This document shows, one piece after another, positions 7,769 through 45,243 of a stretch of DNA of 45,243 nucleotides. Position 1 is the first letter of the stretch. Each line of letters opens with the position of its first letter. The position numbers were made by a program, and so were the translations under genes. The DNA comes from Gammaproteobacteria bacterium (GTDB taxonomy: Bacteria; Pseudomonadota; Gammaproteobacteria; Arenicellales; UBA868), in NCBI GenBank assembly GCA_022450155.1, contig JAKUQR010000023.1, positions 1 to 45,243 on the forward strand. Reading direction: 5' to 3'. Below the pieces are notes generated by a model, which did not search any database, was not told the origin of the DNA, and saw only the letters and a program-made list of their open reading frames with translations.

Positions 7769-7851
7769 TTTTAGATGGGTTTGGGACCTGTGCCTGGCAC
7801 ACTAATAACCTGGTATTTCGGTAAATTTGACTGAAATTGACGACCTCCGCC

Positions 7852-9108
7852 ATGTTTCAATCAGACATTGATGGGCTGATCAGGCGTCAGCAATCCGGCT
7901 GGACGCTGGAGCAGGCATTTTATCGCAGTCCAGAAATCTATCAATTGGAGTTCCAGCAGGTCTTGTCTCCTCAGTGGTTATACGTTGAACACGAGTCAGA
8001 ACTGCCGGAACCTGGTGACTTCCTCACTTATGAAATTGGTGAAGAGTCCATCATTATCGTTCGCGGGTTCGATCAACAATTGCGGGCATTTTTTAACGTC
8101 TGCCGTCACCGAGGATCCCAGATCTGTTTGAAAAAGAACGGTAATATCCGGCGTTTTGTCTGTCCTTATCATGCCTGGGCCTACGACCTTGATGGCAAAC
8201 TAATTTCGGCTCGGCATATGGCAGATGATTTTGATCATTCGCAACACGGGCTGCATCGCTGTCAGGTCGAAGTCCTGGAGGGTCTTATATTTATAAGTCT
8301 AGCGTCACAAGGCAACGCGGAGTTTGATCAGATCAGGCGCAACCTGTTGCCTTATCTCAAACCGCATGGTTTGGCACAGACCAAAGTTGCCCATCGGGAG
8401 GTTTATCCGACCAATGCGAACTGGAAGCTTGCAGTAGAAAATTTTCGTGAGTGCTACCACTGTCTGCCCTCTCATCCGCAATACAGCCAAGTTAACGACT
8501 ATGTCCGTGCGGGTGAACGTGGTTCCAAAGCCTATGAGGCAATGACCAAACAGTTCGCGGAAGTCGCAAGGAGTAAGGGTCGAAAGGCTGGTATGGAACA
8601 TTTCCCATTGCCTATTCAGCCCCACCAGGTCTGGCGGCTTCCCATACAGGAAGGTTATAGGACATTGACCCGTGATGGCAGCCCGGCAGGTCCATTACTG
8701 GGTGAGTTTGAGGAGTACGATGGCGCTGAAACCGCCACTTTTATTGGGGCACTCTCATATTTGTATGTCACAAATGATCATGCAACCACCTTTCGATTTA
8801 CACCGAAGACTCCCGAATTTACGGAAGTTATGGTGTCCTGGCTGGTACGTGAAGATGCGAAAGAAGGCGTTGACTACGATCTCGAGCATCTGAAATGGAT
8901 GTGGGACGTGACCACGATCCAAGATACAAAGATCATTAATGATAATCAGAAAGGTGTGAATTCAAGCCGCTATTCACCGGGGCGGTATAGTGAGCATGAA
9001 CTCTCGACGGCTAACTTTGTTGCCTGGTATTTGTGGCGGCTTTCTGGGCCTACAGACACCGAATGCCCGATTAGGGAAGCTAGGTTTTTTTACGAAAAAA
9101 TGTCTTAG
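7852..9108 (+). CDS. Rieske non-heme iron oxygenase, large subunit (GbcA-like)
   Basis: This 418-residue protein is an aromatic-ring-hydroxylating-dioxygenase-type alpha subunit. Residues about 40-150 form the Rieske domain with C-R-H (FFNVCRHRGSQ) and C-P-Y-H (CPYHAWAYDLDGKL) holding the 2Fe-2S cluster. The C-terminal domain starts with the catalytic iron site NFRECYHCLPSHP, which supplies the two histidines and the bridging acid. The motif arrangement and length are closest to the glycine betaine demethylase oxygenase GbcA and choline-monooxygenase group, so an N-methylated substrate is likely but not proven. No reductase partner (GbcB) lies nearby. The ATG at 7852 was chosen; a TTG 15 bases upstream is possible. 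Confidence 0.85.
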   Translation: MFQSDIDGLIRRQQSGWTLEQAFYRSPEIYQLEFQQVLSPQWLYVEHESELPEPGDFLTYEIGEESIIIVRGFDQQLRAFFNVCRHRGSQICLKKNGNIRRFVCPYHAWAYDLDGKLISARHMADDFDHSQHGLHRCQVEVLEGLIFISLASQGNAEFDQIRRNLLPYLKPHGLAQTKVAHREVYPTNANWKLAVENFRECYHCLPSHPQYSQVNDYVRAGERGSKAYEAMTKQFAEVARSKGRKAGMEHFPLPIQPHQVWRLPIQEGYRTLTRDGSPAGPLLGEFEEYDGAETATFIGALSYLYVTNDHATTFRFTPKTPEFTEVMVSWLVREDAKEGVDYDLEHLKWMWDVTTIQDTKIINDNQKGVNSSRYSPGRYSEHELSTANFVAWYLWRLSGPTDTECPIREARFFYEKMS

Positions 9109-13294: not shown

Positions 13295-14483
13295 AAAAAC
13301 GTTTTGCAATTTGGTCAATCAGATTTGCTGCCAGTTTGACCTTAGTGTCCTGGCCCAAGTCGGTTTCTGTATCCCGGTCAACGAGAATAAGGGCGTTTTG
13401 ATCGCTCCCGAATGGCTTGTCTTTGCCTTCTACAAGATTTGCAACCATTAGGTCGACGTTCTTACGTTTGAGTTTATCGCGAGCGTTGTCGATGGCTCGT
13501 TCCGTTTCAGCTGCGAAGCCGACGATGAAGGGAGGTGACGGTCGAGCGGCCATTGAAGCGAGTATATCGGGGTTGCGAACGAGCTTGATTGTCATCTCGT
13601 ACGCGTCCTTTTTTATTTTCTGGGGCATGCTTTCCGCGGGGCGGTAATCTGCAACGGCCGCAGCACAGATCAGGATATCAGTTGAATCAATTTTTAATTC
13701 AACGGCGACCAGCATTTCCTGTGCAGAAACAACATTTTCGACCTGAACACCCACTGGTGGTGTCAATGCAGTCGGACCGCTAATCAGTGTGACTGAAGCG
13801 CCTGCGATTCGAGCGGCAGTTGCCACTGCATAACCCATTTTTCCAGAACTGTGATTCGTCAAGGCCCGCACTGGGTCCAGAGCTTCCCAAGTGGGGCCGG
13901 CAGTCACCATAACTTGGACACCATCAAGGCTGCCGGGAGATCGACTCTGCTCCAGATGCTCGATGATCACTTCTGGCTCCTGCATACGGCCGGGGCCAAC
14001 TTCACCACAGGCCTGTGGGCCTGTTCCTGGATCAAGGACGGTGACGTTCCAGGTACGCAGGGTGTCCACATTCCGCTGGGTGGCCGTCTTTTCCCACATC
14101 ACATGATTCATTGCCGGCGCAATGGTAATCGGTGCTTCCGATGCCAAGCACAGAGTACTAAGCAGAGTATCGGCAAGGCCAGTCGCTAAGCGCGCGATGA
14201 AGTCAGCGCTTGCCGGCGCAACAATGATCTGATCCGCCCACCGGGCCAATTCGATGTGTCCCATCCCAGCTTCTGCACTGGCATCCAGCAGGGAATCGTG
14301 TACTGGATTTCCGCTGGTCGCCTGGAGAGTTAGAGGTGTGATAAACGCCTTGCCTGCGGGGGTTACAACGACGCGAACGTCGGCCCCGGCATCTCGCAGC
14401 CTGCGGGTCAGCTCCACGCTTTTATAGGCTGCGATCCCGCCGGTAATTCCAACTACAATGTTCGTGCCATCAATAGCGCTCAT
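13266..14483 (-). CDS. coaBC: bifunctional phosphopantothenoylcysteine decarboxylase/synthase
   Basis: CoaBC makes 4'-phosphopantetheine for coenzyme A. Residues about 5-180 are the FMN-dependent CoaC part, with [10 protein letters not shown] at the start, the [17 protein letters not shown] stretch, the PAMNHVMW motif and the substrate-closing CGEVGPGRM. Residues about 190-400 are CoaB, with [21 protein letters not shown] and the KIKK lysine loop. The product is 405 residues, a normal length. I chose the ATG at 14483; the open frame runs another 24 codons upstream but those are not typical of the family. It is divergent from rpmB. Confidence 0.95.
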
Positions 14484-32965: not shown

Positions 32966-33610
32966 CTAGATCCAGTGCGCAGTACCTGTCATAACCCGAC
33001 TGGCTAGGCGCATCAGCGATTTTACGGGTATCGGTAGGTCGGCCGAACCGGCCTGATGTGCAGTTTCCCCATGTTGTTGCTCATCTTCTTTCATGGCGTC
33101 GACGACAGCTCGGCTAGCGAGATCTTTTTCTGGTAGGCGATCCAGATGGGAGCGAAGATGGCCTTCAACCTGTTTTTCAGTTTCTCTAAGAAATCCCAGG
33201 TTAATCCGGTCTCCAGCAAATCCGGCGGCAAGCCCGACCACAAATGAACCCAGATACCAGGCTGGGTTCAATAGGCTTTTCCGTCCGCCAAGGGAATTGA
33301 TGCGGTTCTCACACCAGCGCAAATGGTCTTGCTCCTCGAGCGCAGCCAGGCTCAAGGTTTTTCGCACCCTCTCTGAACGCGATGTCAGGGCTTGGCTCTG
33401 GTACAGAGCCTGGGCACAGATTTCGCCAACGTGGTTAACCCGCATGAGTCGTGCAGACAGATTTTTCTCTGTCGGGGTCAAGTCCCCTTCGACGATTCCT
33501 TCCGCGGGATCAGGTCGGTTCGTACCGGCTTGACGACCAAATAATACGGCTAGAGTGTCGTCAGCGGCACAGATCAGACGGTCTAGAGAAGAATAGGTGC
33601 GTTCAGCCAA
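32966..33610 (-). CDS. coq7: demethoxyubiquinone hydroxylase Coq7
   Basis: Coq7 adds the last ring hydroxyl in ubiquinone synthesis, using oxygen and a carboxylate-bridged di-iron centre. The 214 residues have the ferritin-like ligand set: Glu63 in VNHVGEICAQALY, Glu93 and His96 in EEQDHLRW, Glu145 region in ETEKQVEGHL, and the final E-x-x-H in KEDEQQHGETA. It replaces the flavin enzyme UbiF in many proteobacteria. This implies an aerobic, ubiquinone-based respiratory chain. It lies 25 bases upstream of btuF on the same strand. Confidence 0.95.
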   Translation of the reverse strand: MAERTYSSLDRLICAADDTLAVLFGRQAGTNRPDPAEGIVEGDLTPTEKNLSARLMRVNHVGEICAQALYQSQALTSRSERVRKTLSLAALEEQDHLRWCENRINSLGGRKSLLNPAWYLGSFVVGLAAGFAGDRINLGFLRETEKQVEGHLRSHLDRLPEKDLASRAVVDAMKEDEQQHGETAHQAGSADLPIPVKSLMRLASRVMTGTAHWI

Positions 33611-33680
33611 GGGCCTGGGCTCGGGTTGCTCAAGTCTAGTAGTGCTAGTTTAAAGGCTACGACCATTTTAGGGGGGCTGA

Positions 33681-34139
33681 TCATAAAACCAGACGCCGTC
33701 TGACCAGCGCTACGGCGACCCAGGTGCCAACGATACCAAAAACTGCCAGTACACCGATATGCAGCCACGCGTCTATTACGGGTCGGCCTACAACCAGCGG
33801 TCTGATCAAGGCCACCGCGTGCGTGAGCGGCAAAAACTGAACGAACGTCTGCATGGGAGCAGGAAGACTGGCCGTGGGATAGAAGACACCGCACAGGATG
33901 AACATGGGCGTCATGACCAATGTGAGATAGAACGTAAAGAACTCATATCCTTTCGCCAGTGCGGTCATAATGAGTGCAGGTGCTGCAAAGCAAAATCCGG
34001 TCAGAAAATGTTGCGGGCAAAGCCAGTACAGCCCTCCAGTCAGCAACGGCACCTAGAACAGCAGCCACGGCGAGGATCGCCGAGCCACTGACCAGGCTTT
34101 TGCTGGCGCACCAGAGCAGCTCCCCAATGACGATATCGT
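33681..34139 (-). pseudogene. ABC-2 permease remnant (NodJ-like)
   Basis: Two frames together give the second half of a NodJ/ABC-2-type permease: DDIVIGELLWCASKSLVSGS and AVAAVLGAVADW in one, then after a frameshift near 34020 FLTGFCFAAPALIMTALAKG, TPMFILCGVFYPTASLPAPM and a final membrane helix ending in VRRRLVL. The first half is missing: the reading frame enters directly from the ATPase remnant at TTHY. It cannot work as a permease. Confidence 0.8.
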
Positions 34140-34753
34140 CGTAATGGGTGGTCAGTAAAATGGTTTTACCATTGCGTTTTAGCCGATGGATCAGGGACCA
34201 AATCATGTGCCGGGCCTGAGGATCAAGGCCCGTTGTTGGTTCGTTAAAAACCAGTAGATCGGGGTCATTTATCAGCGCTCTGGTCAGGATCAGTCTGCGT
34301 TGCATGCCGCCAGACAGGGTTGAAATGCGATCCTTTGCCCGGTGATCAAGTTCAACCAGTTTAAGTAGCTTGGGAATGCGGTGTTCCAGTAACGAGGATC
34401 TGATCCGAAAGTGAAGACCATATATTCGCAGGTTTTCAAACACTGAAAATCTGGGTCGAGGTTGTCAGCCTGGGGAACGATACCTGTACGTTGTCGGATT
34501 TCACGCAGATTGCTGTCAATACTTTTACCGAAAATACTTAGAACTCCCGAAGTTCTCCGCGACTGTCCCAGGAGCATGCGCAAGGTAGTCGTTTTACCAG
34601 CACCATTGGGCCCTAGCAGGCCAAAACAGCAGCCGCGCTGGATGTCCAAGGTCGAGGCCCCGAGACAGCCTCCAGTTCGCCGTATGCTTTGTGCAGGGCC
34701 CTGCACATGATGATGGGGTCGGTCTGTATTTGGGTAGCCGCGGTTGAGTCCAC
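34140..34753 (-). pseudogene. ABC exporter ATPase remnant (NodI-like)
   Basis: Three frames are needed. The first reads CRALHKAYGELEAVSG, the second LDIQRGCCFGLLGPNGAGK with an intact Walker A and RTGIVPQADNLDPDF, the third from about 34443 FENLRIYGLHFRI, the signature STLSGGMQRRL and VFNEPTTGLDPQ, where the Walker B aspartate is asparagine. The last quarter, after the H-loop TTHY, is deleted and fused in frame to a NodJ-like permease fragment. NodI/NodJ-type pairs export lipid-linked or lipooligosaccharide-like compounds; the original substrate here is unknown. Confidence 0.82.
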
Positions 34754-34781
34754 TCGGTCTGGGAACGCGTTCAATTGTTCT

Positions 34782-35561
34782 TCAATTCTTGAAGTTGGAT
34801 CTGTACCACTGGGGCAACTCCGCTATGGAGTTCAATACCCAATCACAGCCCTTCGGGGAGGTGTCTGCCCCATTACCCGTGCGAACCTGAAGGGTCTTCA
34901 GGCCTGCACTAATCGCGCCAGCGATGTCTGTCTGAGGGCTGTCACCAATCATGATCGTGTTTGATCTCTGGTAGCCTGCCCGTGTGAGAGCCATTTCAAA
35001 AAAAGCCGTTTCAGGTTTGCCGATCAGTGTGATCTTTCCGGAGATTGCCGATTGGAGTGCGGCAACGATAGGTCCCAGCCCGATTCGAATGATGCCACCG
35101 TCTGGCCAGGTGGGATCCTTGTGCATCGCCACCGGTTCTGCACCGGCTTCGACCAGACGCCTGGCTATATCGATCTCTCCAAAATGGGCCCATTGCGCCT
35201 GCCCGATGACCACCGCATCAACGGGTTCTTCGTTTCGGGTGACTGTGTGACCATGGCTTCGAAAGAGCGAATCAAGATTTTCATCACCAATCAGGAAGCA
35301 GTGTGCATGACCGTACTTGGAGTTCACATATTCCACGGTGGCTTGAGAGACCGGGAAAATTTCTTCGCCAGTGATTTTGTAGCCGATGTCATTGAGTTTG
35401 TATTCAATATCTAAAGCAGACATTCTTGTGGTGTTGGTGACGAGCAAGAACCTGCTGCTTTGGGAACGAAGAAACGACAGCGATTGCGGTCCACCTTCAA
35501 TCAGGTTCGGCCCATCACAAAGCACACCGTCTATGTCGATAAAAAAATCAGGCTGCGGCAC
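34782..35561 (-). CDS. HAD-superfamily IIA phosphatase (NagD/LHPP-like)
   Basis: This 259-residue protein has the four HAD motifs: DIDGV with the nucleophile Asp9 and Asp11, TNTTR, the lysine in GKPETAFFEMA, and IGDSPQTDIAGA. The C2A cap between motifs II and III (VIGQAQWAHFGEIDIARRL) places it in subfamily IIA with NagD, phosphoglycolate phosphatases and mammalian LHPP. The substrate is a small phosphorylated metabolite that cannot be told from sequence. It stands alone between the ABC-exporter remnant and a divergent gene. Confidence 0.88.
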   Translation of the reverse strand: MPQPDFFIDIDGVLCDGPNLIEGGPQSLSFLRSQSSRFLLVTNTTRMSALDIEYKLNDIGYKITGEEIFPVSQATVEYVNSKYGHAHCFLIGDENLDSLFRSHGHTVTRNEEPVDAVVIGQAQWAHFGEIDIARRLVEAGAEPVAMHKDPTWPDGGIIRIGLGPIVAALQSAISGKITLIGKPETAFFEMALTRAGYQRSNTIMIGDSPQTDIAGAISAGLKTLQVRTGNGADTSPKGCDWVLNSIAELPQWYRSNFKN

Positions 35562-35703
35562 TATTCATCTACGGAGATGGGTTGAAGGTGGGCTAGTCTA
35601 ACCGCAGAACACGAGGAACAGAACGTCGGGGCAAGTTTCGAGACGGCGTTGCGGTTCCGGGATCTGTTGCCAATAACTGCGTATTGACGCACAGTTAGCT
35701 GGT

Positions 35704-36273
35704 ATGGACACTCAGGCCGAGGCTTTAGAGCAAAGCTTTTTGGGATGGCAATGCCGCTTACGTCAGATCGCCATGCGTCGGGGCGAAGGCCGGCCGAGCG
35801 ATGGTATGCAACCTCGTATCCTACTGAAAGAGGATGGCCTGAAAGAGGATGGCCGTTATTCCACCGCAATCACTGTACTTATCAACAGACAGTCGGCAGA
35901 AAGTGATGCAAGCCGGTTTCGATATTTGGTGCAGAAGACCCATGATCCAGCAGATCGATTCGCCAATGGTCTTAAGTTCCTCTCAGCGACGCATTATCAG
36001 AGGCCACACGAGTTCTCTGATGAGTTAACCGCGTTGTTTCAGCCCGGCGGTCTTTTGGTTCGAGCGTTGCTGGCCAAGCGGCTCTGCACCTTGGCGTTTT
36101 CTCAGTTCAGCGCAGCTTACACTTTACCTTGTACGGTACGGCAGCTGGCCGACGACACCCCTGCCTATCAGGCAACATACTGGCACAACCGGCTGTTCAA
36201 TTCCCGAATGCCCGAGGATGTAATCATTCTTGGGTTTAAACCAGACTGGAATAAAGCGAGCAGTACAATCTGA
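35704..36273 (+). CDS. conserved protein of unknown function (189 aa)
   Basis: I recognise this as the kind of conserved but unnamed protein found in alpha- and gammaproteobacteria, not as a characterised family. Features are an N-terminal FLGWQCRLRQIAMRRGEGRP, a middle RFRYLVQKTHDPADRFANGL and FSDELTALFQPG, and a C-terminal QATYWHNRLFNSRMPEDVII. There is no signal peptide or membrane helix. A nine-residue direct repeat (LKEDGLKEDG) near residue 41 is local. It is a single gene converging on the GntR regulator gene. Confidence 0.7.
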   Translation: MDTQAEALEQSFLGWQCRLRQIAMRRGEGRPSDGMQPRILLKEDGLKEDGRYSTAITVLINRQSAESDASRFRYLVQKTHDPADRFANGLKFLSATHYQRPHEFSDELTALFQPGGLLVRALLAKRLCTLAFSQFSAAYTLPCTVRQLADDTPAYQATYWHNRLFNSRMPEDVIILGFKPDWNKASSTI

Positions 36274-36305
36274 CCTACATCATCAAGATATTGTGGACCT
36301 GTACT

Positions 36306-37046
36306 TTATTTACGTATCGCGCCGATGAGATCGATGCGTGCGCGCTCGAGGTGTTCGTGAATCGTTGCAATTGCCGCGTCGATATTACGGCTTGCGATCG
36401 CGTTGTAGAGCTGTCGGTGTTGGGCATTGTATTTGGCGATACGCTCAGAAGTCAGAATTGTATCCTTCATTGAGGCCCATTGGGTGTGCGTACGGGTTTC
36501 ATTGATCAGCTGATAGAGCCAGACCATCAGTCGGTTGCGCGTGCATTCTGCCAGTGACAGGTGAAACTCGCTGTCAGCCAGCGTGAATTTTTCCGGGTCA
36601 GTCGGTGTTGATTCCACTCGAGCAAGTGCTTTGCGGAGTCGTTCGATATCAATCGCCGTGGCGTTGGCAATTGCTAGTCTTACCATCTGAGGCTCGATGC
36701 CAAAGCGTACATCGATCAGTTCGAGAGGGCTGGTGACGTCGGCGATGGCAGTCTGTTCGGCAAATTCTCTATAGGTAACAAAGGTGCCGCTGCCGATCTC
36801 TCGTGTGACCATCCCAAGTTCTTCGAGTCGACGGAGTGCTTCGCGAATCGTTCCTCTGGAAACGTCAAAGGTTTCGGCAAGATGCCGTTCCGCGGGTAGA
36901 CGGTCACTAAACCCATAAACACCCTCAACTATTGAGCGTCGTAACTGTGCTGCGATACCCGCGGAACCGCCGACATCGGCCGCATCAGGTATACGCGCGA
37001 CCGCGTGATCGGGATGACTGGATTGTATAAGAGTCTGATTAGCCAT
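36306..37046 (-). CDS. GntR/FadR-family transcriptional regulator (FCD domain)
   Basis: The 246-residue regulator has an N-terminal winged helix-turn-helix at about 30-95 (LRRSIVEGVYGFSDRLPAER, DVSRGTIREALRRLEELGMV) and a C-terminal FCD domain at about 105-235 with the metal ligands expected in ADSEFHLSLAE and HRQLYNAI plus a final HEHLERA. FCD regulators respond to small carboxylates. It is divergent from the glutamine-synthetase-like gene, with a 219-base shared region holding repeated GGTAT half-sites, so it probably controls the downstream operon and itself. Confidence 0.9.
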   Translation of the reverse strand: MANQTLIQSSHPDHAVARIPDAADVGGSAGIAAQLRRSIVEGVYGFSDRLPAERHLAETFDVSRGTIREALRRLEELGMVTREIGSGTFVTYREFAEQTAIADVTSPLELIDVRFGIEPQMVRLAIANATAIDIERLRKALARVESTPTDPEKFTLADSEFHLSLAECTRNRLMVWLYQLINETRTHTQWASMKDTILTSERIAKYNAQHRQLYNAIASRNIDAAIATIHEHLERARIDLIGAIRK

Positions 37047-37060
37047 CACTCGGTTTAAAT

Positions 37061-37222
37061 AGGTATTAAGTTGGTATAAATCGGTACTAGCTTATCTAGT
37101 ATTGGTCCGGTATACAAGAAATAAGATTTAAGTTTACTGTGTTGACATCGGCTTATTCCAAGAGTTAATGTTGACCGTTTCTGGTCTCCTCCACAATCTT
37201 TAAAGGTCTTATATTGGTATAA
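37061..37222. promoter_or_regulatory. divergent control region with repeated GGTAT half-sites
   Basis: GGTA-containing units occur at 37062 (GGTATTA), 37073 (GGTATAA), 37083 (GGTACTA), 37109 (GGTATACA) and 37216 (GGTATAATC). The first three are 10-11 bases apart, on one face of the helix. FCD-type GntR regulators often bind T-G-G-T and A-C-C-A halves. A TTGACA at 37142 with GTTAAT 16 bases on, and the TATAAT at 37217, are candidate promoter parts for the operon. Confidence 0.4.
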
Positions 37223-37265
37223 TCACAGAACACACCAGTCCAGCTGGACACTAAAGGAGAGAAAA

Positions 37266-38735
37266 ATGACCGACCTAGAAGCCCATGTAGCACAGCCAGG
37301 ACGCGACGATCTAGTCAAGCAGGTCAGCGAAAAAATTAAGGAAACCGGTGTCGACTATATGTATTACCAGTTTATTTCGGTCACTGGACGCATCGTCGGC
37401 AAGGGTATTCCGTCCGCGCATTGGGAGCGCCTCGCCGAAAAAGGTTTCCAGCTGGTTTATGGGTCAACCGCAAATCTATTTGTTGACCGCCATGGTAACT
37501 ATATTGGTTATGGCCCTGAATCCTCTGAGCTTGTTGGTATTCCGGACCCCGAAACTTTTTGTCAATTGCCCTGGGACAAACGGGTCGGCCGTGTATTTTG
37601 TACACTGTTTCGCAATCGCGAGGAGCGCGAGAATCCGGGTGGTGCATTAACTTCGGATTGCCGTGGTAATTTACGCCGTATTCACAATGCATTCCAGGAT
37701 AAGCATGGACTGGATATGCGCTGTGGCACTGAGCCTGAGATGATGTGGTTGAAGCGCGGTGATGATGGTAAGCCGAACGGTGGTGTGACCAAACCCAATT
37801 GCTATCATATCGACCAGTTCGAAGAACTTCGCCCCACTTTCATGAAGGTTATAGAGTATTCGCAACAAATGGGTCTCGATATTATCCAGGGCGATCACGA
37901 AGATGCACCCGGACAACTCGAGTTGAATACCCAGTTCGATGATGTGCTGCGTAATGCGGATCGGCTGACCACTTACCGCCAGATCTGTGCGCAGGTTGCT
38001 CGCGAGGATAACTTGATCGCCTGTTTCATGTCGAAACCATTCATGGGTGTATCGGCCTCGGGCTGTCACCATAATATGTCGCTATGGCGCGGCGGTGAAG
38101 ATGTGGTCAATACGCTCGGGTTTGATTCCTTACCCGGTATGGAAGGGGCTTTTACCTACCGGGTCGGTGGTGAGAATACCTTCATGCCCGATCCATCGGT
38201 TGACGAGCGTGCCCCCGGCCCGATTGGTTTGCAGTCTATCGGCGGTGTTATCAAACACCTCAGTGCGCTGACTTCGATCGGTTCTTCGACGGTTAATTCC
38301 TACCGCCGTCTCTGGGATACGGGTTTCTGGGCGCCGATCTTTGCTGACTGGGGTTATCAGAACCGTACCTGTGCATTGCGTGTATCTGCACCAGGCCGAT
38401 TCGAGTACCGTTCGGTTGATTCGATGGTGAATCCTTACCTGATGGGTTCCGCGCTGCTGAAAGCTTTCGACGACGGTATCGATAACGATCTGGATCCCGG
38501 TGAAGCGGAAGAACGCAATATCTATGAGGCGATTGACGCGGGTAAAGAAGTCAAGAAATTGCCGATGTCGCTGGGTGAGGCCCTGGAAGAATTGGGCAAT
38601 GACGAGGTCATTAAATCATCGATGCCTGGTGAAATGTACAGGGTATTCGAGCATTACAAACGCGACGAATGGGAACGCTTTATGCACACCACGACGGAGT
38701 GGGATATGGAAACGTATCTGGACTGTCTGCCTTAA
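37266..38735 (+). CDS. glutamine synthetase family protein (GlnT/gamma-glutamylmethylamide synthetase candidate)
   Basis: The 489-residue enzyme has the glutamine-synthetase catalytic set: Glu156 and Glu158 (GTEPEMMWL), Glu212 and Glu219 (GDHEDAPGQLELN), the ATP-site histidine in GCHHNMSLW, SYRRLWD, and the REFR-like RFEYRSVD. It lacks the adenylylation tyrosine region of GlnA. Length exceeds the 435-450 usual for GlnT and GMA synthetase, mostly in the N-terminal part. Neighbours of the mgs/glx type suggest it joins glutamate to methylamine or ammonia for the next enzymes; that is inference. AAGGAG precedes the ATG. Confidence 0.85.
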   Translation: MTDLEAHVAQPGRDDLVKQVSEKIKETGVDYMYYQFISVTGRIVGKGIPSAHWERLAEKGFQLVYGSTANLFVDRHGNYIGYGPESSELVGIPDPETFCQLPWDKRVGRVFCTLFRNREERENPGGALTSDCRGNLRRIHNAFQDKHGLDMRCGTEPEMMWLKRGDDGKPNGGVTKPNCYHIDQFEELRPTFMKVIEYSQQMGLDIIQGDHEDAPGQLELNTQFDDVLRNADRLTTYRQICAQVAREDNLIACFMSKPFMGVSASGCHHNMSLWRGGEDVVNTLGFDSLPGMEGAFTYRVGGENTFMPDPSVDERAPGPIGLQSIGGVIKHLSALTSIGSSTVNSYRRLWDTGFWAPIFADWGYQNRTCALRVSAPGRFEYRSVDSMVNPYLMGSALLKAFDDGIDNDLDPGEAEERNIYEAIDAGKEVKKLPMSLGEALEELGNDEVIKSSMPGEMYRVFEHYKRDEWERFMHTTTEWDMETYLDCLP

Positions 38736-38823
38736 TACCCGTTCATTGTGTATCGGGTTGCTGCCCAGGACAGCACTCACCCGACCAGTTTGACAGATCA
38801 ACCAATTTTCGGAGGGATTTTCT

Positions 38824-39759
38824 ATGTGTGGTATAGCCGGGCTGATTCACCGCGGTAAGAGTGCTGATGTCGGTAGCGAGCTGACTTCCATGTTGCAGGC
38901 ACTTAAGCACCGGGGCCCCGATTCAACTGGGTTTGCCCTCTATGGGAACCCTCGGGATAACGAGTATGTGATGCGGTTCAAAGTGGCAGAACAGGAAGAA
39001 ATGCGGCATGGGTTTCTTATTCACGACCAGGTCAAAGAAAGACGGGCAGAGGTAGACAGACGTCTTGAGGAATCCGGTGTGCGTAAAACAGCGGAGTTAG
39101 AAGCAACTGAATATGCATTCCGTTACCAATTCTCATTTGACGGAAACATGAAGCGCATCGCTGATTATGTCGAAGATATTGAGGGTGTCGAGATTCTATC
39201 CGTAGGAAATTCGCTGGAGTTGATCAAAGATCTTGGTGACGCAATGGTTGTGTCTGAGCAGTATTCGCTAAGCGGGTTTGAAGGTACTCATGCAATTGGA
39301 CACACCCGTATGGCAACGGAATCGGATGTGGATATTCGATCTGCTCATCCTTACTGGGCATATCCATATAACGATATCGCCGTCGTGCACAACGGACAAC
39401 TGACTAATTATTGGGGATTTCGTCGTGAGATGGAGCGGCGGAATCACCGGTTTATGTCCGACTGTGATTCCGAACTGATCGCGGTCTACATCGCAGACCG
39501 GCTGGATCGAGGGGATGATCTGGAAGAAGCGATGACACGATCTGTGGATGAGCTGGATGGTGTTTTTACCTATGTCGTTGCGACTGAAGACAAACTTGGT
39601 ATGGCAAAAGATGTGATGGCAGCCAAGCCGATGGTGCTTTATGAAAGTGATGATTTTGTGGCCCTGGCATCAGAGGAAGTGGCAATCCGAACCATATTTC
39701 CGCATGAAATCGATACTTATGATCCCTACGAGGGAGAGGTAAAGATATGGCAGAGCTAA
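38824..39759 (+). CDS. class II glutamine amidotransferase subunit (MgsA/GlxB-like)
   Basis: The 311-residue protein is an Ntn-type glutaminase domain, with the nucleophile Cys2 after Met (MCGIAGLIHRG), LKHRGPDSTGFAL, the arginine in GHTRMATES, and VVHNGQLTNY and SDCDSELIAVY. It corresponds to the first domain of glutamate synthase made as a separate chain. In the N-methylglutamate pathway MgsA/B/C transfer the methylamine of gamma-glutamylmethylamide, in the GlxBCD set ammonia. A 100-residue insert (about 55-155) is longer than in GltB. GGAGGG precedes the ATG, and mgsB starts 13 bases before its stop. Confidence 0.88.
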   Translation: MCGIAGLIHRGKSADVGSELTSMLQALKHRGPDSTGFALYGNPRDNEYVMRFKVAEQEEMRHGFLIHDQVKERRAEVDRRLEESGVRKTAELEATEYAFRYQFSFDGNMKRIADYVEDIEGVEILSVGNSLELIKDLGDAMVVSEQYSLSGFEGTHAIGHTRMATESDVDIRSAHPYWAYPYNDIAVVHNGQLTNYWGFRREMERRNHRFMSDCDSELIAVYIADRLDRGDDLEEAMTRSVDELDGVFTYVVATEDKLGMAKDVMAAKPMVLYESDDFVALASEEVAIRTIFPHEIDTYDPYEGEVKIWQS

Positions 39760-40592
39760 AAACCGTTGAGTCATCCCTGGAGATGGGGATGCACACTGAG
39801 CAGTTGTCGGGGCGCACACAGCAGGTCTTCTTCTCATCTGAAGAGAGTGATAACTATACCTATCCGTGGGCAGATGAGGTTGACTTCGCCAAGTCTACTG
39901 AGATTGATGCTGAAGGTGTCGAGAGTAAGGAAGTCAATAGCAAGATCCGAGAAGCGATGGAGCAGGGTTACGGGACGATCACTGTTTTGAATCCGGCTGC
40001 CAAGCACTCGTTGGGTGTTGGTATCCTGAACCGTCTAAATCTACGCTTCGAGGGCAGTCTGGGTTATTTTGGATGCGGTCTGATCGATGGGCCGAACATC
40101 GTGATCACAGGTCGGGTGGGCTGGTCCTGTGCCGAGAATATGATGGCGGGGACGATTATCGTCGAGAAGAATGCAGGTTCCACATTTGGCGCTGCCATTC
40201 GCGGCGGTGATCTGGTGTGTAAAGGCGACGTCGGCAGTCGTACCGGCATAGACCAGAAGGGCGGAACGATTATTGTCGGCGGTCGCACGGGGGCATTTTC
40301 TGGGTTCATGATGCAGCGGGGTCGCATGGTGATCCTGGGGGATGCAGGTAAGCACCTGGGTGATTCAATGTACGATGGCACGATCTATGTGGGGGGCACG
40401 ATTGAGAATCTCGGGGTAGATGCGGTTGAGGGCGAGATGTTGGATCTGGATGTCCAGTGGTTGACTCAGAAGTTTGGCCTGTACGGTTTAGAGGCACCAA
40501 ACGGCATTGAAAAAATGACCAAGATTGTCGCCGGAAAACAGTTGTGGAATTACGACAATCTCGAGCCTTCAGAAAAGAAACTCGTGCTTTAA
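39747..40592 (+). CDS. GXGXG-motif glutamate-synthase-like subunit (MgsB/GlxC-like)
   Basis: The 281-residue protein is the C-terminal beta-helix domain of glutamate synthase as a free chain. Repeating glycine turns are seen in GCGLIDGPNIVITGRVGWSC, GGDLVCKGDVGSRTGIDQKG, GGRTGAFSGFMMQRG and GDAGKHLGDSMYDGTIYVGG. In GltB this helix holds the other domains together. It overlaps the end of the amidotransferase gene and has GGGAGAGG just before its ATG. Confidence 0.88.
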   Translation: MAELKTVESSLEMGMHTEQLSGRTQQVFFSSEESDNYTYPWADEVDFAKSTEIDAEGVESKEVNSKIREAMEQGYGTITVLNPAAKHSLGVGILNRLNLRFEGSLGYFGCGLIDGPNIVITGRVGWSCAENMMAGTIIVEKNAGSTFGAAIRGGDLVCKGDVGSRTGIDQKGGTIIVGGRTGAFSGFMMQRGRMVILGDAGKHLGDSMYDGTIYVGGTIENLGVDAVEGEMLDLDVQWLTQKFGLYGLEAPNGIEKMTKIVAGKQLWNYDNLEPSEKKLVL

Positions 40593-40611
40593 CGAACTCA
40601 GGACAAAAATC

Positions 40612-41949
40612 ATGTCAACGAATAGAAATACAGATGTCATCGGGCACAGTTTTATTTTCCCGCCTGAGGTGATTGATGATATACACATCAAGTCCGAGCT
40701 CGGCCGTTACCGTATGCGGGGGTTTTCACTATTTAAGAAAATTCCAAGCTGGGATGACTTGACGTTTCTACCGGGCACGCTGACAAGATTTGTGATCGAG
40801 GGCTACCGGGAAAAATGTCTGACTAAGACGGTTATCGGGCCCCGGGCGAAACGTCCACTGGAGCTGGATATACCGATTTACATTACCGGAATGAGTTTCG
40901 GCGCACTATCGTACGAAGCAAAGACAGCGTTGGCACGTGGCGCGACAATGGCCGGCAGTGCGACGTGTTCCGGAGAGGGCGGAATGATACCGGACGAACG
41001 GCGGTATTCCGAAAAATGGTTCTATCAGCTTATTCAATCGCGTTACGGTTTCAATCCCCATCATTTACGCCTGGCCGACGGCTGTGAATTTTTTATTGGT
41101 CAGGGATGTAAGGTCGGCCTGGGCGGTCATTTGATGGGTCAGAAAGTCACTGATCAGGTGGCGGAAATGCGGTCCCTGCCCGCGGGTATCGACCAACGTT
41201 CTCCCGCTCGTCACCCCGATTGGCTGGGACCCGATGATCTTTCGCTAAAAATTCAGGAAATACGGGAAGCGACGAACGGCGAGATCCCCATTCAGCTCAA
41301 GCTGGGTGCCGCACGTGTTTATGATGATGTGCGAATGGCAGCTAAAACGGATCCAGATTCGATCTACATCGACGGGATGGAAGGTGGCACCGGTGCCGGC
41401 CCACACCTGGCAACCGAGGAGACGGGTATCCCTGGCATAGCAGCAATACGCCAGGCTCGGCGGGCGCTTGAGGACGTGGGTGTGTCCGGGGATATCACGC
41501 TGGTGTATGCCGGTGGTATCCGAAATGGTGGGGATGTCGCAAAAGCGCTGGCTTTGGGGGCTGATGCGGTCGCGATTGGCCACTCATCTTTAATGGCGCT
41601 TAACTGTAATAAGGATATTCCAGAAGCTGATTTTGAGAAAGAGATCGGGGTCGAGGCGGGCCATTGTTATCACTGTCACACGGGTCGGTGCCCGGTCGGC
41701 GTGGCGACCCAGGATCCAGAGCTTAGAAAGCGGCTCAATCCGGATGATGCAGCTGAACGTGTGTACAACTTTTTACACACGCTCACAATTGAGTGTCAGA
41801 TGCTGGCCAGGGCATGCGGCAAGACAAATGTACATTCGCTGGAACCTGAAGACCTGGCAGCATTGACAATGGAAGCATCGGCTCTGGCCCAGGTGCCACT
41901 AGCTGGCTCCCAGCATACGGTTGGCCGGCCTGACATGACCCGGTTCTGA
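40612..41949 (+). CDS. FMN-binding glutamate-synthase-like subunit (MgsC/GlxD-like)
   Basis: The 445-residue catalytic subunit has the FMN/2-oxoglutarate domain of glutamate synthase: GMSFGALSYEAKTALARGA, GEGGMIPDER, IQLKLGAARVYDDVRMA, IDGMEGGTGAGP, YAGGIRNGGDVAKALALGAD, and the 3Fe-4S cluster cysteines in CYHCHTGRCPVG. No GltD-like NADPH subunit is present, so reduction must come from another donor such as ferredoxin. The ATG at 40612 was chosen for the conserved start; upstream residues in the same frame lie within the end of the previous gene. Confidence 0.9.
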   Translation: MSTNRNTDVIGHSFIFPPEVIDDIHIKSELGRYRMRGFSLFKKIPSWDDLTFLPGTLTRFVIEGYREKCLTKTVIGPRAKRPLELDIPIYITGMSFGALSYEAKTALARGATMAGSATCSGEGGMIPDERRYSEKWFYQLIQSRYGFNPHHLRLADGCEFFIGQGCKVGLGGHLMGQKVTDQVAEMRSLPAGIDQRSPARHPDWLGPDDLSLKIQEIREATNGEIPIQLKLGAARVYDDVRMAAKTDPDSIYIDGMEGGTGAGPHLATEETGIPGIAAIRQARRALEDVGVSGDITLVYAGGIRNGGDVAKALALGADAVAIGHSSLMALNCNKDIPEADFEKEIGVEAGHCYHCHTGRCPVGVATQDPELRKRLNPDDAAERVYNFLHTLTIECQMLARACGKTNVHSLEPEDLAALTMEASALAQVPLAGSQHTVGRPDMTRF

Positions 41950-41962
41950 GGAGACGCTCATT

Positions 41963-42352
41963 ATGACAAATGAAAAAGATATTGATCATTTCATCAACAC
42001 GGATGGTCTAGATACAGAACGGGAGCAGACTATTGGCCAGCACATCGGCTATCGGTACGACGTTAACTTGGTACCAGACCCCCGCCGGGTAACACCATTT
42101 CTACAAAAGTACATCGATACCATGGGTTGGCGGGATTTAAACTGGCTCGAGGATGTGCATATGGGTTACGAGGATGGCCGACCGGCTGTTTTTGACCGTA
42201 ACATCAATGGCTGGGTCTCGATTCCAGAAGATATGAAACTGCCTGATAATCAGCAGGATCGTGACATGATTGCTCGCGAACTGCTCATACGGTTTCAGAT
42301 GTCACCCCGTCACCCGATGGTTGACTTGCGCAAGGCCTACGCAAAATTCTAG
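41963..42352 (+). CDS. unrecognised small protein of the mgs-like operon (129 aa)
   Basis: I do not recognise this protein. It is acidic, with IGQHIGYRYDVNLVPDPRRV, then YIDTMGWRDLNWLEDVHMGY, then AVFDRNINGWVSIPEDMKLP and a last helical part ending RKAYAKF. It has no cysteine, no signal peptide and no membrane helix. GAGGAG precedes the ATG and the gap to mgsC is 13 bases, so it is cotranscribed. Its position suggests a small subunit or assembly factor for the split enzyme, which is inference only. Confidence 0.75.
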   Translation: MTNEKDIDHFINTDGLDTEREQTIGQHIGYRYDVNLVPDPRRVTPFLQKYIDTMGWRDLNWLEDVHMGYEDGRPAVFDRNINGWVSIPEDMKLPDNQQDRDMIARELLIRFQMSPRHPMVDLRKAYAKF

Positions 42353-42594
42353 CTGTTAGTTGTAAAGGAGTAATGTAAGGGAGCCTTGGTTATTGTTGTT
42401 GGGGCAGTGTTGTTTGGTGCGCCTCAACCAAGTCACCAGAACAAGCCACAGTTCTTAACTGATGTGAGCTGGCAATCGTACAGTATACTCAGCTCTATTT
42501 TTACACTGTGGCATCCTATCAGAATCGGGTTCCTTCGGCTGTTCGGCAAATTGGCTAGATCTCTTGAAGGGCGATTTCCAAATTGGAGAACAAA

Positions 42595-44271
42595 ATGTCT
42601 ACACCTGACAGTGATATTGAAATCGCCCGAGCAGCGACTACTGAACCCATTCAGGTTATTGGCGAGAAGCTTGGCATTCCCGAAGAATCATTACAGCCCT
42701 ATGGACACACCAAAGCAAAGATCAGTTACGATTTTATAAAGTCGCTGGAGTCCAGACCCTATGGAAAACTGGTGTTGGTAACCGCTATTTCTCCAACACC
42801 CGCCGGCGAGGGCAAAACGACAACCAGCGTCGGCCTGGGTGATGGCTTAAACCGGATCGGCAAAACCGCCGCGATCTGCCTGCGTGAGCCCAGCCTGGGC
42901 CCATGTTTTGGGATGAAGGGCGGTGCGGCAGGCGGCGGCTATGCACAAGTGGTCCCGATGGAGGACATTAATCTCCACTTTACCGGTGATTTTCATGCGA
43001 TTGGTGCCGCGCACAATCTGTTGTCCGCATTGGTGGATAACCATATCTACTGGAGTAACGAGCTGGAGTTGGATTCGAGACGTGTCACCTGGCGTCGTGT
43101 AGTCGATATGAATGATCGGGCGTTGCGCCAGATCACGACTTCCTTGGGCGGTGTGGCCAATGGGTTTCCAAGAGAGAGCGGTTTTGATATTACGGTGGCG
43201 TCGGAAATTATGGCGATTTTTTGTCTGGCTGAAGATCTAGATGATCTGAAGCGTCGTCTAGGCAATATAATTGTCGGTTATACGCGAGACCGCAAGCCTG
43301 TCCATTCTCGAGATGTGCATGCGCCGGGTCCGATGACGGCGTTGCTCAAAGATGCGTTTATGCCCAATCTGGTCCAGACGCTGGAAAACAATCCGGCGCT
43401 GATCCATGGTGGGCCATTTGCGAATATTGCCCACGGTTGTAATTCTGTGGTGGCAACGAAGACAGCGCTCAAACTGGCTGATTACGTTGTGACCGAGGCT
43501 GGTTTCGGCGCTGATCTTGGTGCGGAGAAGTTCTTTGATATCAAGTGCCGCAAGGCAGGTTTGGCACCGGATGTGGTTGTACTGGTGGCCACTGCCAGAG
43601 CCCTGAAGATGCACGGGGGTGTGGCCAAGAGTGATCTTAGTTTAGAAAACGTGGCTGCAGTCGAAGCGGGCCTGGAGAATTTAGGACGCCATCTACGCAA
43701 CATCACCCAGTATGGTGTTCCGGTTGCTGTCGCGATCAATCGATTTACAGCCGATACTGACGCCGAGTTGGGTGCTATCAGCCGGTTCTGTTCAGAATTC
43801 GGTGTTGAGGTCTTTAGCTGCACACACTGGTCAGATGGTGGCGCCGGGACTGAAGCTCTGGCAACCCACGTTGCAAATCTTGCCGACAGTGGTCAGTCGC
43901 AATTCCGCACCCTGTATGACGACAAGCTCTCGCTTTGGGAAAAAGCCCGGTGTGTCGCCCGTAATGTATATGGTGCGGATGACATCATCGCAGACAAAAA
44001 GGTTCGTGCGCAATTTGATGAATACAACAAGGATTATGGGCATTTCCCAGTCTGCATGGCAAAGACCCAGTACAGTTTTTCAACCGATCCAAATCTGCTT
44101 GGGGCTCCCTCGGGACACATGGTGCCTGTTCGGGAGATTCGACTTTCGGCTGGCGCGGAATTCCTGGTGGTAATTTGCGGCGAGATCATGACCATGCCGG
44201 GTTTGCCGCGGGTACCCGCCGCAAACAGCATCTCGGTCAATGAGCAGGGTGAAATAGAAGGTTTGTTCTAG
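42595..44271 (+). CDS. fhs: formate--tetrahydrofolate ligase
   Basis: The enzyme joins formate to tetrahydrofolate with ATP, giving 10-formyl-THF, or runs in reverse to make ATP from C1 units. The 558-residue product shows the P-loop [79 protein letters not shown] and the C-terminal [15 protein letters not shown]. The ATG at 42595 follows TTGGAGAA. It lies 242 bases after the small mgs-operon gene; the gap has no gene I can see. Linkage to methylamine-type genes fits handling of one-carbon units. Confidence 0.95.
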
Positions 44272-44437
44272 TGCAGAAGGCTCTATTGGGGAACGAGAGA
44301 CCTGATAAACAAGCGCACCGGTGCTGGGATGCGGTAGCAGCCAGTATTGAAGCGTGAACTTAAGTTATGCCAGGTCGAGCTGCTGTTCGCGCCGTACAGT
44401 CCAAGCCTGGAGTAATTTGTCTATTAGGAGAGTAGTT

Positions 44438-45243
44438 TTAAGCTAATCCTAATACTTTCTTTCTGTCGTTGGCCCAAGTTCGTATCACTTGATCAGCGGC
44501 CAGACCAATAAAGGCAACACAAAGCCCTAGGGTCAGTCCATTGCCTGTTCCATTTTTATCGGATAAAGCTTTCAAAATAAATTGTCCAAGATCATCGGTA
44601 CCAATCATCGCGCCAATGATGATCATGGATAACGCAAACACGACGGTTTGATTAACGCCCAACGCCATGTGTGGAAAAGACATGGGCAATTCAATTTTGA
44701 TCCATCTTTGCAGTCGATTGACACCTGACATTGAGCCCGCATCATGCAAATCTGGCGACACACTGCGCAGTCCTTCCACGGTATAACGGGTAGCAGGAAC
44801 CGTGGCATAGACAATAACTGCGATTAATACGGAGGTATCGGTTACGCCAAAAAGCATAATCACGGGAATCAAATATATAAAGGATGGAAAAGTTTGAAAC
44901 GTATCACAAACCAATAAAATGAATTTTGCGGAATACGAATTTTGCGCACATAAAGTTCCCACCGTAACGCCAATAATGGATGACACAATGACTGCAAAGC
45001 TCATTAAGTACATCGTAATAAGGGCTCTATCCCACCATTCTGTCAAAGCGATAAACAAAATAAATCCGCCAACAATTGCTGCCGATCGTATTCCGCCGAT
45101 GATGTAACCAACGCCCATGGTTAAAGCAAGCGTTGCAACAACCGGCATACTGAGATACGCGGCTTTCATCGGCATCAGGATCTGCTGAATCAAAAATACA
45201 TTAAACCCTTTTAATGTGAAGAAGAAGGTATCCCATATCCAAT
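44438..45243 (-). CDS. ProW-like ABC transporter permease, partial
   Basis: The reading frame is still open at the right edge of the window, so the 5' end is missing. The visible part has five or more membrane helices and the permease coupling region (TVPATRYTVEGLRSVSPDLH, then GSMSGVNRLQRWIKIELPMS). It matches the ProW/OpuAB group, importers of glycine betaine, proline and related osmolytes. The gene's codons are AT-richer than those of fhs next door, and it lies on the opposite strand, so it may have a different origin. An ATPase and a binding protein would be expected beyond the window. Confidence 0.85.
   Translation of the reverse strand, partial: WIWDTFFFTLKGFNVFLIQQILMPMKAAYLSMPVVATLALTMGVGYIIGGIRSAAIVGGFILFIALTEWWDRALITMYLMSFAVIVSSIIGVTVGTLCAQNSYSAKFILLVCDTFQTFPSFIYLIPVIMLFGVTDTSVLIAVIVYATVPATRYTVEGLRSVSPDLHDAGSMSGVNRLQRWIKIELPMSFPHMALGVNQTVVFALSMIIIGAMIGTDDLGQFILKALSDKNGTGNGLTLGLCVAFIGLAADQVIRTWANDRKKVLGLA

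Follow-up and report, generated by a model that had tools for sequence, protein, structure and literature searches.

A conserved gene module marked by a new protein family as a candidate glutamate-based pathway for dimethylamine in Proteobacteria

We analysed a stretch of 45,243 nucleotides from a Gammaproteobacteria bacterium (contig JAKUQR010000023.1 of GenBank assembly GCA_022450155.1), which as a whole is called the window here, and focused on a module of five closely packed plus-strand genes. These encode a glutamine synthetase (GS)-like protein (GS489), a class II glutamine amidotransferase subunit (AT), a GXGXG subunit (GXG), a glutamate-synthase-like FMN subunit (FMN) and a 129-residue protein (P129), and the gene of a GntR-type regulator is divergent from them. 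Judging from sequence comparisons, we lean towards the reading that the module is a second N-methylglutamate-like pathway, in this case for dimethylamine (DMA), which replaces the oxygen-dependent DMA monooxygenase DmmDABC. The wider claim seems to us about evenly poised, namely that this is an undescribed oxygen-independent DMA pathway with gamma-glutamyldimethylamide and N,N-dimethylglutamate as intermediates and P129 as its marker, which substitutes for DmmDABC in many Proteobacteria and partly closes the reported genetic gap in the breakdown of methylated amines in the ocean.

Conservation of the module and its co-occurrence with Tdm

A scan of genome_contigs with P129 gave at least 588 stretches that encode relatives, and we kept the best 80 loci, 37 of which had full flanks of about 8 kb on each side. 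Since the loci were collected with P129 as bait, they all contain it by construction, which does not apply to the other core genes. Neighbouring genes were counted by tblastn, since the caller of open reading frames misses genes. The order GS489-AT-GXG-FMN-P129 was intact in all 37 full-flank loci and therefore the gene order is conserved beyond chance; the GntR gene lay upstream of the core on the opposite strand in 30 of them. According to the record titles, the hosts of the P129 loci are Gamma-, Alpha- and Betaproteobacteria.

Regarding P129 itself, the mean column identity among 43 sequences (its nearest relatives) was 82%. No family was found for it in Pfam (43 members, E up to 10), NCBIfam or PHROGs, and the plasmid collection held no match at E 1e-3. 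The search for its fold gave a best Foldseek E of 1.8 and no VIA-align match at Z of 2 or more, on a model with mean pLDDT 78, so that a known fold is still possible. Its sequence profile found nothing convincing in the PDB, the sole lead being 9ya3_H (E 0.006 over 73 profile positions). In one locus (L047) P129 occurs twice: the additional copy (14090-14470; 75% identity with that of the window) lies outside the core, about 6 kb from the first.

The clue to the substrate comes from the genomes in which the module occurs. Tmm and Tdm together give DMA, as stated in a passage of PMC13390433, and we used PF11927 (DUF3445), a subunit of DmmDABC, as a proxy for Dmm. In a Paracoccus alcaliphilus plasmid the genes for DUF3445, a reductase, a DmmA-family protein and an aminomethyltransferase stand side by side, adjoined by glxC-type, FMN glutamate-synthase-type, glnT, soxBDAG-type, folD and purU genes. 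In an even draw of 397 Pseudomonadota genomes, with Tdm scored at E 1e-100 or better, 29 were Tdm-positive (27 of them above the curated cut-off) and 78 had PF11927. Among the Tdm-positive genomes 27 had PF11927, 26 of these at 222 bits or more; they include G067, with Tdm below the curated cut-off and PF11927 at only 172 bits. Tdm is below the curated cut-off in G269 too. The two Tdm-positive genomes that lacked PF11927, the one of the window (G000; 0 matches) and G008, were the only P129-positive genomes among the 397. Among the 368 Tdm-negative genomes, any accepted PF11927 match was found in 51 and a match of at least 215 bits in 12.

A further sample consisted of 50 P129-positive genomes from the best 80 loci, which are the nearest relatives by P129 and not a random choice, many of them metagenome-assembled by their titles and all of unstated completeness. 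Tdm was present in 37 (36 above cut-off) and PF11927 in 2 of the 50, and 36 of the 37 genomes with both Tdm and P129 had no PF11927; in the remaining one (G426) the only match is a lone paralogue that shares 28% identity with the protein of P. alcaliphilus. The second genome with PF11927 is that of Methylohalomonas lacus (G436), which has no Tdm. Over all Tdm-positive genomes except that of the window, PF11927 occurred in 27/27 without P129 vs 1/38 with P129; the Fisher p of 1.9e-17 overstates the case, since the genomes are related and the P129-positive ones were not randomly chosen. This co-occurrence points to DMA as the most likely substrate of the module, which agrees with the original prediction in its view that the actual substrate may be a different amine from methylamine.

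The ligase GS489 and the closest known systems

GS489 is longer than usual, as had been predicted: it has 489 residues vs 434-435 for the gamma-glutamylmethylamide synthetase (GMAS) of the same genome, the extra residues being mainly at 1-15, 69-78, 118-124 and 277-299. It fails the type III GS profile TIGR03105 with 288.8 bits (cut-off 469.6; the GMAS of the same genome reaches 672.2) and it is also below the GlnA cut-off. The phylogeny that the original prediction had proposed as a check was run on 37 rows, and several long branches meet in this tree, so that its deep placement is unsure. The GS489 proteins formed a clade of 14 rows (support 99/98); the next to branch with it were proteins from plasmids of Paracoccus sp. 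TOH and Ruegeria (99/97), followed by those of Rhodococcus and Streptomyces (100/100). GS489 plus these kin made up one 100/100 clade (18 rows) and GMAS a separate 100/100 clade (10 rows). Thus GS489 was placed neither in the GMAS clade nor with the Rhizobium GlnT, which itself falls in the GMAS clade.

Furthermore, the catalytic residues assigned in Rhodovulum GmaS (RhGmaS; Asp177, Glu186 and Arg312, in the parts consulted of PMC7948447) correspond to Asp210, Glu219 and Arg367 of GS489, and they were kept in 50/50 GS489 sequences, like the Trp at the glutamate-flap position. The column of the glutamate-binding Gly231 of GmaS is Ala in all 50. At the column aligned to the ammonium-site Asp50' GS489 has no Asp. 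The Ala48 column depends on the alignment (Ala in 48/50, or Val in the window protein in the tree alignment), being Asp in neither. Because the GmaS catalytic residues and the flap Trp are kept in a clade of its own outside GMAS, GS489 looks like an amine ligase that is neither an ammonia ligase nor a GMAS by descent. The same parts of PMC7948447 report that DMA is a poor substrate of RhGmaS (Km 16 mM, kcat 2.57 per s); therefore DMA ligation would be feasible in the GmaS fold.

The nearest described system is the GMAS/N-methylglutamate pathway (gmaS-mgsABC-mgdABCD), which has a GS-like ligase, a class II amidotransferase, GXGXG and FMN subunits in the same order and shares the catalytic Asp, Glu and Arg; some module loci are also near soxBDAG-type, FolD and Fhs genes. 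However, the ligase of the module belongs to a separate clade, with extra segments and the Ala mentioned above, and the module often has a separate FAD oxidase (DAO), co-exists with another type III GS in most genomes and includes P129. The module can be seen as a variation on this architecture to which the new P129 family is added. DmmDABC resembles the module in the role proposed for the latter, from DMA to the level of methylamine, and in that several module loci are near Tdm, soxBDAG or FolD, whereas none of the five core proteins matches PF11927 or any oxygenase family. The Rhizobium glxBCD-glnT set (L114) also places a three-subunit glutamate-synthase-like set beside a GS, but its GlnT has 435 residues and is a GMAS-clade protein, and P129 is missing from the plasmid collection. 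Finally, the nearest GS489 relatives found outside the module (39-54% identity in the plasmid collection) are GS-like proteins on plasmids of Paracoccus sp. TOH, Ruegeria and Rhodococcus, although their neighbours are genes for gamma-glutamyl hydrolase-like proteins, aldehyde dehydrogenase or P450 and not for glutamate-synthase-like subunits. Next to the GS489 relatives of Paracoccus sp. TOH and Ruegeria (L104/L105) there are also a further, divergent GS gene and one for a type 1 glutamine amidotransferase.

The proposed pathway and its alternatives

In the pathway that we propose, GS489 would use ATP to join DMA to glutamate, giving gamma-glutamyldimethylamide, and AT would hydrolyse this compound and release DMA, which the GXG and FMN subunits would add to 2-oxoglutarate; their reduction of the iminium would yield N,N-dimethylglutamate. 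The methyl groups would then be stripped singly, via N-methylglutamate, by a flavin N-demethylase (presumably DAO and/or a soxBDAG complex in most genomes with P129), with transfer to tetrahydrofolate, and FolD and Fhs would pass the one-carbon units on. P129, the constant partner, would probably be a specificity or assembly subunit of the ligase or the synthase. The route may be independent of oxygen, because there is no oxygenase in the module.

Regarding the demethylase, DAO has 447 residues and was found at the module in 24 of the 37 full-flank loci. It was present in 36/51 P129-positive genomes (that of the window excluded) vs 1/27 genomes with Tdm and without P129. Its PDB relatives by sequence include sarcosine oxidase beta, N,N-dimethylglycine oxidase and dimethylglycine dehydrogenase, which demethylate N-methyl and N,N-dimethyl amino acids, as well as L-amino acid deaminases. 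Tdm was near 14/37 loci with strict limits (18/37 with loose ones), SoxA-type genes near 5/37 (9/37 loose), and any of DAO, SoxA and Tdm near 36/37 (37/37 loose). Thirteen full-flank loci have no DAO, and in 12 of these, all but L069, Tdm adjoins the GntR gene. A count of MgsA near 37/37 loci was discarded as a cross-hit to AT. In Methylohalomonas lacus (G436), a cluster that joins dmm, an MgsABC-like set and GMAS holds the P129-linked soxBDAG type (SoxB 72%, SoxA 54%), a position which suggests that this type is the N-methylglutamate dehydrogenase. The original prediction had stated that no such dehydrogenase is nearby; this holds for the window, but homologous loci often carry soxBDAG or another FAD oxidase beside the module, and three complete or near-complete soxBDAG-type sets exist elsewhere in the genome of the window.

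Several points weigh against the reading of the module as a replacement of DmmDABC for DMA, besides the bias of the p value noted above. The even draw alone, minus the genome of the window, gives a p of 0.036 only. M. lacus has P129 together with a complete dmm cluster. Of the 50 further P129-positive genomes, 13 have no Tdm at E 1e-100; therefore the module is not merely a downstream step in the use of trimethylamine N-oxide (TMAO). The survey of DMA consumers covered PF11927 only, with no search for a DMA dehydrogenase. SAR11 and CHAB-I-5 have trimethylamine (TMA)/TMAO genes without dmm, according to the sections consulted of PMC5520151, and neither is in the P129 survey. Concerning the demethylase, the genome of the window has no DAO at E 1e-60, as is the case for 15/50 further P129-positive genomes, and its three SoxA proteins are 33-37% identical to the P129-linked SoxA of L035 vs 40-46% to that of P. 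alcaliphilus. No dedicated demethylase (DAO or the P129-linked type of soxBDAG) was thus found in this genome.

Some of these points would fit better with a module acting on another secondary or branched amine, for instance from the breakdown of choline, betaine or xenobiotics, the absence of Dmm being incidental. Actually, M. lacus and the 13 genomes without Tdm are in line with such a substrate, and so is the setting of the nearest GS489 relatives from plasmids (54% identical in Paracoccus sp. TOH and Ruegeria, 40% in Rhodococcus), whose gene sets look like those of amine glutamylation. However, we consider this explanation unlikely, given that Tdm is present in 37/50 P129-positive genomes vs 27/395 others in the even draw, that it adjoins the regulator gene in nearly all loci without DAO, and that P129 and PF11927 nearly exclude each other in Tdm-positive genomes.

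Slightly less probable again is that the module is a second methylamine system, that is, a set of isozymes of the GMAS/N-methylglutamate type with another affinity or regulation. The architecture, as in gmaS-mgsABC, the conserved catalytic residues, and neighbours such as an ammonium transporter (16/37 loci) and the soxBDAG-type genes already counted would agree with it, and in the 7/50 P129-positive genomes without a type III GS above cut-off the module could serve methylamine. On the other hand, 43/50 have another type III GS above cut-off (42 at 637 bits or more), the two sets are adjacent in L015 and L023, GS489 does not fall in the GMAS clade, and a methylamine role leaves the absence of PF11927 in genomes with Tdm and P129 unexplained. 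In the genome of the window, contig C22 encodes a GS that scores 660 bits against the solved GmaS of Rhodovulum (PDB 7cql). Within about 17 kb of it there are amidotransferase and GXG/FMN genes of its own, together with Tmm, a homologue of ammonium transporters and Tdm; Tmm reaches 760 bits (cut-off 675) and Tdm 1264.7 bits (cut-off 1100). Since a true GMAS is encoded on a different contig, together with an MgsABC-like set and Tmm, the module is probably not the methylamine operon. The original prediction had proposed gamma-glutamylmethylamide/N-methylglutamate chemistry, of which the class of chemistry stands, by residues and neighbours, but methylamine as the substrate has become less likely with the separate GMAS and the place of GS489 in the tree.

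That the module is an ordinary ammonia-assimilating GS/glutamate synthase pair is very improbable, since only the fold families would suggest it, while GS489 has no Asp at the Asp50' column, has Trp at the flap position and scores under both the GlnA and the type III GS cut-offs, and elsewhere in the genome there are other GS genes, including a GlnA-like one (L082), and a 1539-residue frame of the size of a full-length glutamate synthase (L090).

A DMA pathway of the proposed kind would be of interest because DMA is a climate-relevant compound. If it exists, surveys based on dmm only would undercount DMA degraders, P129 would be a simple marker gene for them, and a secondary amine would be attacked by capture on glutamate instead of by an oxygenase. 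In the sections consulted of Lidbury et al. (2017, PMC5520151), which also describe dmmDABC and its patchy distribution, it is reported that SAR11 and abundant marine Gamma- and Deltaproteobacteria lack dmmDABC, and a bottleneck is proposed, with DMA escaping to the air. A passage of PMC3160333 already describes glxBCD-glnT in SAR11 with a proposed role in methylamine use, and the regulation of the Ruegeria TMA cluster, as far as the consulted text of PMC13390433 goes, concerns clusters of the dmm type. Among the matches listed in the open papers that we searched there was no glutamate route for DMA, which leaves its absence elsewhere unproven.

Features of the locus and its neighbourhood

The gene order of the original prediction (regulator, GS-family protein, amidotransferase, GXGXG, FMN, 129-residue protein, fhs) was confirmed by open frames and family matches, and the features are collected in Table 1. 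By contrast, its inclusion of fhs in one operon was not established: this gene lies 242 nt beyond P129 and was near only 9/37 full-flank loci. It is the sole PF01268 match found in the genome of the window. For FMN, the best plasmid matches are annotated as FMN-binding glutamate synthase family and were at most 54.5% identical among the matches listed.

Table 1. Features in and around the module, with positions in the window
Feature	Position	Strand	Remarks
c7, 189-aa protein of no named family	35704..36273	+	split-barrel fold with flavin binding predicted; often found near the module
GntR/FadR-type regulator	36306..37049	-	PF00392 (GntR) and PF07729 (FCD) above cut-off
Candidate regulator site, repeat copy 1	37061..37079	.	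direct repeat with 37204-37222
Candidate regulator site, repeat copy 2	37204..37222	.	direct repeat with 37061-37079
GS489, GS-like putative amine ligase, 489 aa; proposed gamma-glutamyldimethylamide synthetase	37266..38735	+	PF00120 (Gln-synt_C)
AT, class II glutamine amidotransferase subunit, GlxB/MgsA-like	38824..39759	+	PF13522/PF13537 (GATase_6/7); N-terminal MCGIAG
GXG, GXGXG subunit, GlxC/MgsB-like	39747..40592	+	PF01493
FMN, glutamate-synthase-like FMN/Fe-S subunit, GlxD/MgsC-like, 445 aa	40612..41949	+	PF01645 (Glu_synthase) 301 bits; likely ATG at 40612
P129, 129-aa protein, new family, module marker	41963..42352	+	relatives in genome_contigs; no named family matched
fhs, formate--tetrahydrofolate ligase, 558 aa, loose neighbour	42595..44271	+	NF010030 900.6 bits vs cut-off 652 (PF01268, FTHFS); likely ATG at 42595
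ProW/TmoW-type ABC permease	44438..45193	-	best NCBIfam match choline ABC permease, below cut-off; frame continues to window edge

The two copies of the direct repeat are 84% alike and 143 nt apart, and a similar pair exists in L003. Scans for promoters and terminators gave signals no stronger than in shuffles, and Rfam had no match at 33000-45243. Regarding the outer neighbours, homologues of c7 were found in 27/37 full-flank loci and of the permease in 8/37. The AlphaFold model of c7 has a mean pLDDT of 94 and matches split-barrel structures in the PDB (best Z 11.4), so that a flavin-binding split-barrel protein is predicted; its invariant residues are W15-Q16-C17 and H161-N162.

The genome of the window holds further sets that may be relevant to amines. 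On contig C9 (L100, 6325-11948) there is a third GS with amidotransferase, GXGXG and FMN genes and an N-methyltryptophan-oxidase-like FAD protein in between, which is another possible amine pathway. On contig C22 a second type III GS (L098, 18551-19999; 549 bits) is near the GMAS/Tmm cluster, and genes for a PhyH-type dioxygenase and an alpha/beta-hydrolase lie between it and Tmm. Within the window, an apparent ABC transporter ATPase/permease pair (by eye; 33681-34706, minus strand) is broken into three overlapping frames by decay or sequencing error. Rieske ring-hydroxylating-type oxygenases include N-demethylases, and a gene of this type is found at 7837-9105 (plus strand), unlinked to the module.

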